Shown here: positions 1 to 7,839 of the stretch, piece by piece | Numbering within the stretch: the stretch's first letter is position 1 | Layout: every line of letters begins with the position of its first letter | Assembly (NCBI GenBank): GCA_022562855.1 | Contig: JADFON010000065.1 | Span: forward strand, 1 to 8,284 | DNA length: 8,284 nt | DNA from: Candidatus Zhuqueibacterota bacterium | Lineage (GTDB): Bacteria > SM23-31 | Direction: 5' to 3' | The notes under the pieces: generated by a model | What the model was told of the DNA's origin: nothing | The model's database searches: none | Seen by the model: only the letters and a program-made list of their open reading frames with translations | Made by a program: the position numbers and the translations under genes

Positions 1-297
1 CAGGTTTAATGAAAATAATTTTCGTCTGACATACAGTACCCGGTAATCCATTTTTCTCAGAACAGACTCTACCTCAGACCGTTCATAGGCTTTCTGTTCT
101 CCGAGGACGGGCTTCTCTTTTGATCTCTGCGCCTTATACAAAAAGGTCTTTTCACGGATAATCCGCTTCAGCCTGAAAAACTTCTTTATCTGGAGAAGTT
201 TTACCGCTCTTTTCGCGGCGGGAAGATTAGTGACGGCTATTACCCCGCTGATTACCTGCCCGTTGTTTCTTTCACCTATGTATTTGAAATTTGTCAT
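1..297 (-). CDS. Type II secretion/type IV pilus assembly protein, GspF/PilC family (N-terminal part)
   Basis: Only the first 99 codons are inside the window; the gene continues past the left edge. The protein opens MTNFKYIGERNNGQVISGVI, the usual start of GspF/PilC platform proteins (F-x-Y, then N-G-Q, then G-x-I). It continues with a basic segment (residues 28-60, including TFLYKAQR), then GEQKAY and EVESVLRKMDYRV. This ~100-residue N-terminal region, with a 'GEQKA...EV...L.kM.Y.V' tail before the membrane part, is what I recall from FCB-group F-family proteins. In the family these are polytopic inner-membrane platforms on which pilin or pseudopilin fibres assemble; the membrane segments themselves lie outside the window. 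The gene follows a pilin-like gene on the same strand 100 nt upstream, which supports the call. The Shine-Dalgarno is weak. A GTG nine codons upstream (324) is in frame, but the ATG gives the usual family start. Confidence 0.8.
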   Translation of the reverse strand, partial: MTNFKYIGERNNGQVISGVIAVTNLPAAKRAVKLLQIKKFFRLKRIIREKTFLYKAQRSKEKPVLGEQKAYERSEVESVLRKMDYRVLYVRRKLFSLNL

Positions 298-337
298 TTG
301 ATAATGAACCAAATTTTTTTTCACGTTTGAGAATTTA

Positions 338-799: not shown

Positions 800-846
800 T
801 GTAAACCTCCGTAAATGTGAATGTTTGTTACCTGCACAGTACTAAG

Positions 847-861
847 GCAACAGCCGTGCCA
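847..861 (-). promoter_or_regulatory. Sigma-54 (RpoN) promoter of the pilin-like gene
   Basis: Reading the minus strand, the sequence is TGGCACGGCTGTTGC, an exact match to TGGCACG-N4-TTGC, with the invariant GG and GC separated by 10 nt. The -12 C is at 847, which predicts a transcript start near 835 and a leader of about 36 nt carrying the GGAGG site. Pilin genes in several bacteria (PilA of Pseudomonas, Myxococcus and Geobacter) are sigma-54 dependent, so the match is biologically sensible. It implies control by an enhancer-binding ATPase that is not encoded in this window. Confidence 0.85.
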
Positions 862-1233
862 AAAATATTTGATATGGGTGTATGTTATTGAATGTAATAG
901 AGTTATGATCTTTACAGCGAAGATAAAAAAAGTGATGGTGCGCACATCATTGATTACTATTAACCGGAACTGGTGGTTGCAAACAAAAAAACTGCTTTAT
1001 ATTTATGATATCTTGTGAGAGTACAGGGGAATGTACAGTAGGAGCAATATGGAAAATGTATGGAGGAATAGAATCTCGGATAATTTGAATTTGAAATACA
1101 TAATACTTTAGTTAGATTTCAAAATCAAAGATCAATTGTTTATAAAAGTACTTCAAAATAAATTGAATAAACCGTAAATAAATAGTATATTTGTGTGCGG
1201 TGTACGGTGGCGCGGATATTTGAGGAATTTAAC
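862..1233. other. AT-rich intergenic region, no convincing gene
   Basis: About 370 bp between the sigma-54 promoter and the small basic gene. Apart from the dyad at 933-949 it holds a short inverted repeat, GTACA-N6-TGTAC, at 1021-1036. It also holds a 20-codon open frame at 1049-1111 (plus strand) preceded by AGGAG. Neither is strong enough to call. The rest is AT-rich DNA with many stops, consistent with an upstream regulatory region. Confidence 0.5.
933..949. promoter_or_regulatory. Candidate enhancer-binding-protein site (GTGCGCAC dyad)
   Basis: An 8-bp perfect palindrome GTGCGCAC (938-945) is flanked by TGAT and ATCA, with one unpaired G on the left side. Its centre is about 106 bp upstream of the predicted sigma-54 start, within the usual distance for bacterial enhancer sites. 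The surrounding DNA is AT-rich, so the GC-rich dyad stands out. Its function is inferred from position and symmetry only. Confidence 0.35.
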
Positions 1234-1473
1234 TCAGGCGAATATATCGATAAACCGGTCCTGGAACGACCTGTTTTTCTGGACTGATATCAAGAATTTT
1301 GACGTGGCAAATTTGATCCTGGTGGGTGTCAGGTTGGTATCGATACCGGTTCTTGCTATGTTTCCTGCTTTTTTTCGTACTTTCAAACCGGTTTTTGAAA
1401 TGACTCTACTTCCTCTGCTGCGTACAAAAACCAGACTTCTTAAAGCGTTAACTCCCGTGCTTATAGATGCCAT
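1234..1473 (-). CDS. Small, strongly basic protein of unknown function
   Basis: I do not recognise this 79-residue protein. It begins MASISTGVNALRSLVFVRSR and has about 16 Lys/Arg against three Asp and no Glu, so it is very basic; the central part (SKTGLKVRKKAGNIARTG) is the most charged. No signal peptide, membrane helix or cysteine is visible. The opposite strand is open over the same DNA (1193-1480, GTG start), but I prefer the minus frame. Its codons start with a purine far more often, it has an AAGG Shine-Dalgarno 8 nt before the ATG, and a good -35/-10 pair lies about 25 nt upstream. The plus frame would give a hydrophobic antisense-like product with no ribosome site. The composition suggests a nucleic-acid-binding role, which is a guess. 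The frame could also be the remnant of a larger gene. Confidence 0.42.
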   Translation of the reverse strand: MASISTGVNALRSLVFVRSRGSRVISKTGLKVRKKAGNIARTGIDTNLTPTRIKFATSKFLISVQKNRSFQDRFIDIFA

Positions 1474-4244: not shown

Positions 4245-4290
4245 CAAAAAAAAGGTCAATTCCAATCCGTGAAACGGAAAGGAATTGACC
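4245..4290 (-). terminator. Strong intrinsic terminator of the peptidase-SDR unit
   Basis: The arms GGTCAATTCC (4254-4263) and GGAATTGACC (4281-4290) pair perfectly. Inside lie a symmetric 2x2 loop and a second stem, TCCGT/ACGGA (4266-4270/4274-4278), with a 3-nt loop. Reading the minus strand, eight consecutive T follow directly (4246-4253). On the plus strand no T-run follows, so it acts for the minus-strand genes. It lies about 100 nt after the SDR stop. Confidence 0.85.
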
Positions 4291-4297
4291 AAACTTT

Positions 4298-5131: not shown

Positions 5132-7678
5132 TTACTTGATATAAACCATCTTGCGAATGCTGCTGAATCCCGGTACTTCGAGCTTGTAAAAGTAGACCCC
5201 GGTTGAAACGCTAATTCCAAAATCGTCAAGCCCGTTCCAGCTTACGCCAAAACTTCCCGCCGGGTATTCCCTCTCGGCGAGTGTTCTGATTTTCTGTCCA
5301 AGTATATTGTATATAATTAAACTCACTGTGCCACCTTCAAAGAGATCGAATAGTATGTTTGTATTAAAGTTGAATGGATTAGGATAGTTTTGGCTCAATA
5401 CAAATCTGTCGGGTTGTGTTAACGGAAGCAACAACGGATCGTTTTCTGTCAATAACGGTTGATCGTGGACCAAAATATCGTCCAATGTCCATCCTCCTGC
5501 CACATCCGATTCATCGGTCACAAGACCAAACCGGATACTCACATCCTTCTTGCCTCCCGCAATGCCGGAAATATCAAGCGTCTGCAGAGTCCACTCCTTG
5601 TCAAATTGAGGTTCGCTTTCAGGACTTTCCCATATTGTTTCCCCGTTTACAGAAATATACGCCGCGTCGCTCTTATCTTTTGTCAACCAGCGAAAAAACT
5701 GTAGATAAACCGTATCCCAACCGGTGAAATTCAGACTCCTTATCTGCAAATAGTTATCCGTAAAATCCTGGTAATTACCGTTAAACCCCGGTTTCCCCAG
5801 GTCGTTACCCCAGACGAATTTTCCCGAATGCGCCCAGGGTGGATCAAATGTTCCTCCGAATGTGCGTCCCCGTTCCCAGTCATCGTTGTTGTTTAGCGTT
5901 CCGGGAATATAATTGTGTGTCCAGCCGGTTTCGTCATCATATTCAACATTATCGAAAAACCCCTGAACGGTGTCCGATAATACAGTTTCCGACAAAAATT
6001 CATTCTCCTCGTAGAGCGAAGCGTTAATCTCTATTATATGACCCGGTGCAACGCCGGACGACACCGTATATTTGACATTTTGCTCGGATGTAACGGTCTC
6101 GTCCGGCTCGAAAGGTCCAAAAGCGACTGAATCTGTCTTGATCGTAATATTTTCATCTGTTGTCGAAAGCAAAACATAAATATCATCCAGTATTAACCCG
6201 CCGATGTTTCTCAGGGTAAGAGATCTTTCAACGGATTCCCCCCTGTTCACCAGCCTGTTTCCGTTACCCGTGCCAATTCCCGAAACTCCGTCAAGAACAG
6301 CGGTCTGAATAACAACCGGAAACCCGGTCGGCTGTAGAGAAACGTCAAGAACCTGTAGAGTTTCACCTTCCTGGAAGGTAACGGAGTATTCTTTTGTCAT
6401 ATATCCCATTGCAGAAAAGGCAATAGTGTAATCACCGGGCTCGAGCAACCTCGTATACCTCCCGAATTGCGGTTCCGCTCTGCGGTGTTTCATGAGAATT
6501 TCATTTTCTTTGCCTTCTATTGCTATCCGGGCGCGGACCGGTTTTCCCGAAAGACTGTCGGTTACCAATCCTGTTATTCCCGGTCCTTTCATCCTGTTTA
6601 GGAACATGACGAATGAGGTAAGATTTTGTTGTTGAACGAGTGGGATAGCGTTTAACGGATCAGACGGTATTTTGCTCTTGCCAGTCTCCATAGTAAACGT
6701 CATTGTACCGAATTCAGCATACATATAATCGTCATATCCGCCCGATACGGTATAACGAAACGGATGGCTGTATTCGTAAAACATTATGTCCGCCATCCGG
6801 TTGCCGAGATTACTATAGAAATCTTCATCGGGTGTCGGCAGGTTAAATTGGAACAACCATGGATGGAGTACAAGGTCTCCAAAACTATGATAGGTGATCG
6901 AACCTGTAAAAGGAACCTTATCAACGAGTTTTTTTAGCGCTTGTGTTTCCGGTTCGGAAAAGGGAGCCGTGCCGTGACCTCCTATACCGCCCGGCGTAAA
7001 TCCAAAATCGTGATTTCGGTTTAAATCCACATTATTCATATTCCGGCGTTGAGGCGGATTCGACATACGCCCGTCAGGATTGAACATAGGAATAAACCAC
7101 AATTCATACGAATCGACATAATCCTTTGCATCCGGGTTACTGTTGTACGATTCAACCAGCCACGTAATTTGACTCATCGCTACCTCAACATTCAATACTT
7201 CATCGCCATGGTAACTTGCTGCTACAAGAAACTTCGGTTCGTCCTCTTGTTCATCGACATTGTCCGAAATCTTGACCCCCCAGATTCCAAGACCGTTTAC
7301 CGATGAGCCAAGCGAATCGACCTTCATGATTTCAGGGTAGTCCGCCTGCAGTTCGGAAAGTATCGATTTCATTTCAAAATAGTCGGTGAACTCCTCAGGC
7401 AGCGGTGCATTCGGAACAAGCATTGTAACCGTAAACCCCATTCCGGATAACTCGACGGCAAACTTTTCAGTATCGTAAACCACAATATATTCGCCCTGCT
7501 TCCCGCCGATAATATCTACTTCCAGATCGTCAAAAAGCCTCAAAAGTCTATCGGTCGGAGAATCGATCCGAAAACTGGTCATCTTCTCATCCTGGGCAAA
7601 GAGCAGGGTGGTAAAAGAGACGGAAATGGCGATAACCAAGAAAATACAGATTCGATGTAAATTACAATTGTTATTCAT
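5132..7678 (-). CDS. Secreted M14 zinc carboxypeptidase with type IX sorting domain
   Basis: This is an 848-residue exported metallopeptidase. The signal peptide is residues 1 to about 28 (basic start, hydrophobic core, cut near LLFA-Q). After a propeptide-like stretch, the M14 catalytic domain covers about 95-360. It has zinc ligands H157 and E160 (HGDE) and H264 (YHSFGD), substrate residues in NPDGR (200-204) and NRN (220-222), Arg211/212, Tyr320, and catalytic Glu331 (TMETG). A carboxypeptidase-regulatory-like beta domain follows (366-451), then an Ig-like region (about 455-570) and a jelly-roll/MAM-like region with DDWERG and GGWTLDDI (about 575-740). The C-terminal sorting domain (about 758-848) has the FVLSQNYPNPFN signature. 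In this family the sorting domain sends proteins through the type IX system to the surface or medium, so extracellular peptide degradation is the likely role. An in-frame GTG at 7690 would add four residues; ATG gives the better signal peptide. No clear Shine-Dalgarno is present for either. Confidence 0.92.
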   Translation of the reverse strand: MNNNCNLHRICIFLVIAISVSFTTLLFAQDEKMTSFRIDSPTDRLLRLFDDLEVDIIGGKQGEYIVVYDTEKFAVELSGMGFTVTMLVPNAPLPEEFTDYFEMKSILSELQADYPEIMKVDSLGSSVNGLGIWGVKISDNVDEQEDEPKFLVAASYHGDEVLNVEVAMSQITWLVESYNSNPDAKDYVDSYELWFIPMFNPDGRMSNPPQRRNMNNVDLNRNHDFGFTPGGIGGHGTAPFSEPETQALKKLVDKVPFTGSITYHSFGDLVLHPWLFQFNLPTPDEDFYSNLGNRMADIMFYEYSHPFRYTVSGGYDDYMYAEFGTMTFTMETGKSKIPSDPLNAIPLVQQQNLTSFVMFLNRMKGPGITGLVTDSLSGKPVRARIAIEGKENEILMKHRRAEPQFGRYTRLLEPGDYTIAFSAMGYMTKEYSVTFQEGETLQVLDVSLQPTGFPVVIQTAVLDGVSGIGTGNGNRLVNRGESVERSLTLRNIGGLILDDIYVLLSTTDENITIKTDSVAFGPFEPDETVTSEQNVKYTVSSGVAPGHIIEINASLYEENEFLSETVLSDTVQGFFDNVEYDDETGWTHNYIPGTLNNNDDWERGRTFGGTFDPPWAHSGKFVWGNDLGKPGFNGNYQDFTDNYLQIRSLNFTGWDTVYLQFFRWLTKDKSDAAYISVNGETIWESPESEPQFDKEWTLQTLDISGIAGGKKDVSIRFGLVTDESDVAGGWTLDDILVHDQPLLTENDPLLLPLTQPDRFVLSQNYPNPFNFNTNILFDLFEGGTVSLIIYNILGQKIRTLAEREYPAGSFGVSWNGLDDFGISVSTGVYFYKLEVPGFSSIRKMVYIK

Positions 7679-7726
7679 TTTTAGTGTCACAGCTTAGGTA
7701 ATTTTTTGAATTTAACGCAATAATCA

Positions 7727-7750
7727 CACCCCCAAACGAGTTTGGGGGTG
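7727..7750. repeat. Perfect 11-bp GC-rich palindrome upstream of the peptidase gene
   Basis: CACCCCCAAAC (7727-7737) and GTTTGGGGGTG (7740-7750) are exact reverse complements separated by only GA. This gives an extremely stable hairpin or cruciform about 50 nt upstream of the M14 start. No T-run follows on either strand, so it is not a standard terminator. It could be a repeat-element end, a protein site, or a 5'-UTR structure. Confidence 0.7.
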
Positions 7751-7839
7751 CCACAAATGCCTCATTGTGTCATTGTCCCGTTAGGGATGGCTTACGCCAC
7801 GAGGAGCGTAGCGACGCCTGCCTCTATCTTTTCGGGGTG
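7727..7839. repeat. Hairpin-rich, REP/MITE-like noncoding block
   Basis: The block starts with CACCCCCAAA and ends with TTTCGGGGTG (7830-7839), which are inverted copies matching at 9 of 10 positions. Between them lie further small hairpins: TCCC-GTTA-GGGA, TTACGC...GCGTAG around an 8-nt loop, and GCGT-AGCG-ACGC. It is GC-richer than its surroundings and has no plausible coding frame. This looks like a dispersed palindromic repeat, but copy number cannot be seen from one window. Confidence 0.4.

Follow-up and report, generated by a model that had tools for sequence, protein, structure and literature searches.

The window analysed here is the whole stretch of 8,284 nucleotides and belongs to the MAG of an uncultured bacterium of the SM23_31/KSB1 type, which has 2.5 Mb and is 80% complete (G000). 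Together with five relatives, this source genome makes up the class set of six: G001 (bacterium SM23_31), G002 (PL23a_bin.125), G003 (KSB1 B21_G16), G004 and G005; the contigs of the latter two stop too early to cover the promoter. On the minus strand of the window, positions 398 to 799 encode a pilin-like protein of 133 amino acids (MGQQQLLLIVLGVIVVG...), the first gene of an operon that continues with the start of a PilC/GspF-type gene (1 to 324, minus strand; alternative start Met at about 297), which is cut by the contig end. By eye, the N-terminus of the PilC/GspF-type product is the same as that of the PilC-like protein of G001 (L019:4710-6056). Orthologues of the 133-amino acid protein are found in G001 (81% identity), G002 (65%), G004 (59%), G003 (50%) and, in part, in G005. 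On contigs that are long enough, the orthologue heads an operon (loci L019, L020, L021, L022 and L177) for PilC/GspF, PilB/GspE, small pilin-like proteins and a member of the PilT family, followed by proteins that are PilM/N- and PilO-like by their position and then by a secretin.

The AlphaFold model of the 133-amino acid protein (pLDDT 84) consists of one helix (residues 2 to 55) and four strands. A Foldseek search with this model gave no significant match in the PDB (best E value 0.46, PilE). In a second structural comparison (VIA), ranks 1 to 15 were all type IV or competence pilins, with Z scores from 10.1 to 5.8. As judged from the model, the protein has a type IV pilin fold. We call it pilin-like rather than a canonical type IV pilin, since the Gly-Phe class III cleavage motif and Glu5 are missing in all 33 aligned members (MGQQQLLLIVLG...); moreover, the MGQQQLLL N-terminus leaves a leader of at most one or two residues. 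Neither Pfam nor NCBIfam holds a family for the pilin of the window, and there was no match to the N_methyl model of Pfam; among the members of the MGQQQLLL family that were tested, NCBIfam gave no match and Pfam only weak and mixed ones (the best to ComP_DUS, E value 4e-4). A literature search on the MGQQQ pilin motif found no match, and relatives of the pilin are encoded in at least 482 candidate stretches of GTDB genomes. At two loci of the wider family, L045 and L050, the pilin gene is apparently present in tandem copies, and one of the copies at L045, located right after an activator gene, has a non-ATG start (IGQQQ in frame).

Several other features of the window deserve mention. Between an AlkZ-like gene and the pilin gene, positions 1237 to 1473 (minus strand) hold an open reading frame of 79 codons (MASISTGVNALRSLVFVRSRG...) with a counterpart of 54% identity at the same place and in the same orientation in G001 (L019:2980-3216) and none in the other loci compared; it overlaps an open reading frame on the opposite strand (1193 to 1480) that is probably not a gene. 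The product of positions 5132 to 7690 (minus strand) is an M14 carboxypeptidase; it also has a carboxypeptidase-regulatory domain and, at its C-terminus, a tail of the FlgD-Ig/Por-secretion type, and this domain arrangement suggests secretion by a type IX-like route. Two strong inverted repeats were recognized by eye, one after the STAS gene (about 4254 to 4291, ggtcaattcc...ggaattgacc) and one upstream of the carboxypeptidase gene (7726 to 7751, cacccccaaac...gtttgggggtg).

The promoter and its conservation

The first-pass annotation had described an exact RpoN consensus in front of the pilin-like gene, and this is what we find on the minus strand: at positions 847 to 861, TGGCACGGCTGTTGC matches all specified bases of the sigma-54 (-24/-12) pattern TGGCACG-N4-TTGC, with the spacing GG-N10-GC. 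The distance to the ATG, the A of which is position 799, is 47 nt. If the standard spacing between -12 and +1 is counted from the -12 at position 847, transcription is predicted to start at about position 835. This would give a 5' leader of 36 nt (800 to 835, minus strand) that contains GGAGG at 806 to 810, six nucleotides from the ATG, in agreement with the leader and start proposed earlier. If two mismatches are allowed, the window contains one match, which is the number expected from shuffled sequence; the value of the match therefore lies in its exactness and its position. By our own arithmetic with equal base frequencies, a window of this size should contain about 0.004 exact matches. The six class genomes contain 17 exact copies, five of them in G000, as compared to none for the reversed control pattern. 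Other exact sites in G000 (L150, L156 and L162, on contigs C16, C115 and C424) precede genes for FapA, flagellin and a canonical N-methyl pilin with the GFTLIE motif, and in the class relatives such sites are also found in front of two Hsp20 genes and one CheY-like gene. The contig of the GFTLIE pilin carries in addition two apparently out-of-place open reading frames (L185:5746-8051), one of them JAB-like by eye, which possibly reflect a mis-assembly or a mobile island.

The site is conserved at the orthologous genes. Both closer relatives, G001 and G002, with pilin identities of 81% and 65%, have kept TGGCACGG-N3-TTGC at 43 to 62 nt from the ATG (CTGGCACGGGTATTGC, 62 nt, in G001; TTGGCACGGGCATTGC, 43 nt, in G002), and in these two genomes the promoter stands out from upstream DNA that is otherwise poorly conserved. 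G003 has a degenerate form (ATGGCATAATAATTGT / ATGGCATAATAATTGTA); MAFFT did not align it with the others, so it was judged by its position. For the wider family, upstream regions were scored with a purpose-made, approximate sigma-54 matrix. A score above 12 was reached by 23 of 77 regions in front of pilin genes as compared to 4 of 431 that precede other genes at the same loci, and by 2 of the 77 pilin regions when the reverse strand was used as control (Fisher p about 7e-17 for the enrichment, a value that is only indicative because the sequences are related). The promoters of the cousin group end in TTGT rather than TTGC. Many distant members of the family, notably those of the Balneola group, have no high-scoring site although rpoN is present there. 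Thus, enhancer-dependent control as it had been proposed for the FCB-type pilin family as a whole holds for this class and for some cousin lineages, but not for the entire family, in which only about one third of the members have the site.

A palindrome upstream of the promoter

A second element, which had gone unmentioned in the first-pass annotation, is located at positions 951 to 966 (minus strand). The sequence CGGTTAATAGTAATCA is a near-palindrome with three mismatches to TGGTTAATATTAACCA, and a fit of this quality was reached by 10 of 2000 Markov samples. The exact TGGTTAATATTAACCA is present in G001 and G003, in each case as the sole exact copy in the genome, and the palindrome of G002 deviates from it at two positions. 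The spacing is conserved as well: from the centre of the palindrome to the GG of the -24 element we count 98 bp in G000, 97 bp in G001, 101 bp in G002 and 91 bp in G003. Size, symmetry and position are as expected for the site of an enhancer-binding protein (EBP), and this is the probable function of the element.

RpoN and its activators

Searches with PF00309 and PF04552 detected no RpoN in the 80%-complete assembly of G000; RpoN is encoded in all five class relatives and in 44 of 50 other pilin-bearing genomes. Since rpoN is nearly universal in the latter set, a correlation between the presence of the site and that of rpoN is uninformative. Where the contigs of the class relatives extend around rpoN, the gene adjoins lptB, mostly in front of hflK. 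None of the three genes was recovered from G000, where only ABC transporter and weak SPFH paralogues were found. The product of lptB is generally essential in Gram-negative bacteria. The objection that there can be no sigma-54 promoter in an organism that lacks RpoN was rejected because the neighbouring lptB is missing from the assembly, too, and a gap in the assembly is the best explanation for the missing rpoN.

There is no activator gene in the 8,284-nt window. G000 encodes about eight strong sigma-54 activators, and the four of them that were put through a GAFTGA-like filter (L124, L131, L138 and L144) all pass it. In G002, the gene directly upstream of the pilin gene and on the same strand encodes, at L018:1003-2460, an activator of 485 amino acids in which a sigma-54 interaction domain is combined with a Fis-type helix-turn-helix, whereas a receiver domain is missing. 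In G005, an activator fragment with a DNA-binding end similar to that of the G002 EBP is convergently oriented right after the secretin gene of the pilus operon, and G000 contains an N-terminal fragment of 124 amino acids, cut at a contig end, that resembles the G002 activator (27% identity, E value 5e-5). An activator gene is located upstream of the pilin gene and in the same orientation at 11 of 80 loci of the wider family. At six of these loci (L053, L054, L055, L087, L094 and L114), a gene for a response regulator of the PilR/NtrC type immediately precedes the pilin gene, and all six contain the motif TTT(A/G)TGACA at nearly the same place relative to the TGG: at -172 in L053, L054 and L087, at -171 in L055 and L094, and at -170 in L114. 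The chance of any copy of this motif is 0.4 to 2.4% per region. The class and these six loci thus share the combination of a sigma-54 promoter with an activator at a constant distance, but they differ in the activator and in its site.

Discussion

Our work supports, with high confidence, the idea that a working RpoN promoter, controlled by an EBP bound to the upstream palindrome, drives the type IV pilus-like operon headed by the gene at 398 to 799. From the sequences, we infer the following course of binding and activation: The RpoN holoenzyme would wait at 847 to 861 as a closed complex, a dimeric EBP on the palindrome near 951 to 966, about 98 bp upstream, would reach the promoter by looping of the DNA, and its AAA+ ATPase would open the complex so that transcription begins near position 835. 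The most likely activator in this class is the EBP without receiver domain, the gene of which lies beside the pilin operon in G002 and at the far end of this operon in G005. In the cousins among the Zixibacteria, LCP-89 and Calditrichota, a response regulator of the PilR type would act through a different enhancer.

Three other explanations have to be considered. (i) The promoter may be real, but in G000 it may be activated by a PilR-type response regulator with its gene at another place, for instance beside pilD on contig C327, rather than by an EBP of the G002 type. Adjacent activators in other phyla do carry receiver domains, and the pilD/ATPase cluster on C327 includes a receiver-like EBP. 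However, in both G002 and G005 the pilus operon is physically linked to a gene for the G002-type EBP, and among the activators compared, the G004 homologue alone comes near to the G002 EBP in its DNA-binding end (61% over 104 residues; 39% for the next one). We regard a PilR-type activator in G000 as rather unlikely. (ii) An additional promoter of the sigma-70 type might provide a basal level of pilin without any signal. Four weak sigma-70-like matches are present between positions 300 and 1250 on both strands, one of which is well placed (1128 to 1100, minus strand), but this number corresponds to the level in shuffled sequence (mean 2.7), and none of them has demonstrated conservation; a contribution of such a promoter seems improbable. 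(iii) That the match at 847 to 861 is a functionless chance resemblance, as its chance-level frequency with two mismatches might suggest, is hardly credible in the light of the conservation at the same position in the orthologues, the enrichment in the family, the linked enhancer element and the linked activator genes.

With the RpoN promoter and its palindrome-bound EBP as the preferred reading, the transcription of the pilin gene very probably depends on RpoN and an activator, and is therefore signal-gated, in this class and in some cousin lineages. To this extent, the earlier view of fibre production as an induced, signal-dependent trait is supported. It is tempting to speculate further that the MGQQQ proteins form a distinct class of major pilins that have hardly any leader and lack Glu5. 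Their sigma-54 promoter would have persisted in several FCB phyla, whereas activator and enhancer were exchanged, so that an EBP without receiver domain acts on TGGTTAATATTAACCA in a single lineage and a PilR-type regulator on TTT(A/G)TGACA in the remaining ones; we put this idea forward tentatively, as somewhat less probable than its opposite. The results open the regulation of this pilin family to experiment; the family is widespread, is not covered by a fitting model in Pfam or NCBIfam, and occurs in phyla known mostly from metagenomes. As the promoter and the likely enhancer and activator can be named, one can search for the signal that induces the fibres in relatives with the site, such as some Ignavibacteria.

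The type of mechanism is already known: the control of pilA by PilR and RpoN has been described in Pseudomonas aeruginosa (PMC6058289), and in Geobacter sulfurreducens the RpoN promoter of pilA lies just downstream of pilR (PMC2725144). As in these PilS/PilR-RpoN systems, a sigma-54 promoter directly precedes the major pilin gene, and as in the pilR-pilA arrangement of G. sulfurreducens, the gene for an NtrC-family activator is located immediately upstream in several of the relatives. The differences are that the phyla are unrelated, that the pilin has no canonical prepilin motif, that the linked activator of G002 lacks a receiver domain, and that the enhancer sequences vary between lineages. 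With the type IV pilins of the PilA/PilE/PilV fold, the protein shares the predicted long N-terminal helix and four-stranded sheet as well as an operon with PilC, PilB, PilT and a secretin; unlike them, it starts with MGQQQLLL and has neither the Gly-Phe cleavage motif nor Glu5 nor a longer leader. What is less expected is the lineage-specific activator and the unmodelled pilin family. Enhancer-dependent control of pilins, which is best known from the Pseudomonadota and Geobacter, is very probably also present in FCB lineages. Finally, our data fit the view of sigma-54 as a controller of the bacterial exterior (Francke et al. 2011, PMC3162934): the exact sites of the class also precede genes for flagellin, FapA, a CheY-like protein and an N-methyl pilin. 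There is no difference in principle from this theme, which is now extended to FCB lineages that are uncultured and to a pilin family for which Pfam and NCBIfam have no fitting model.
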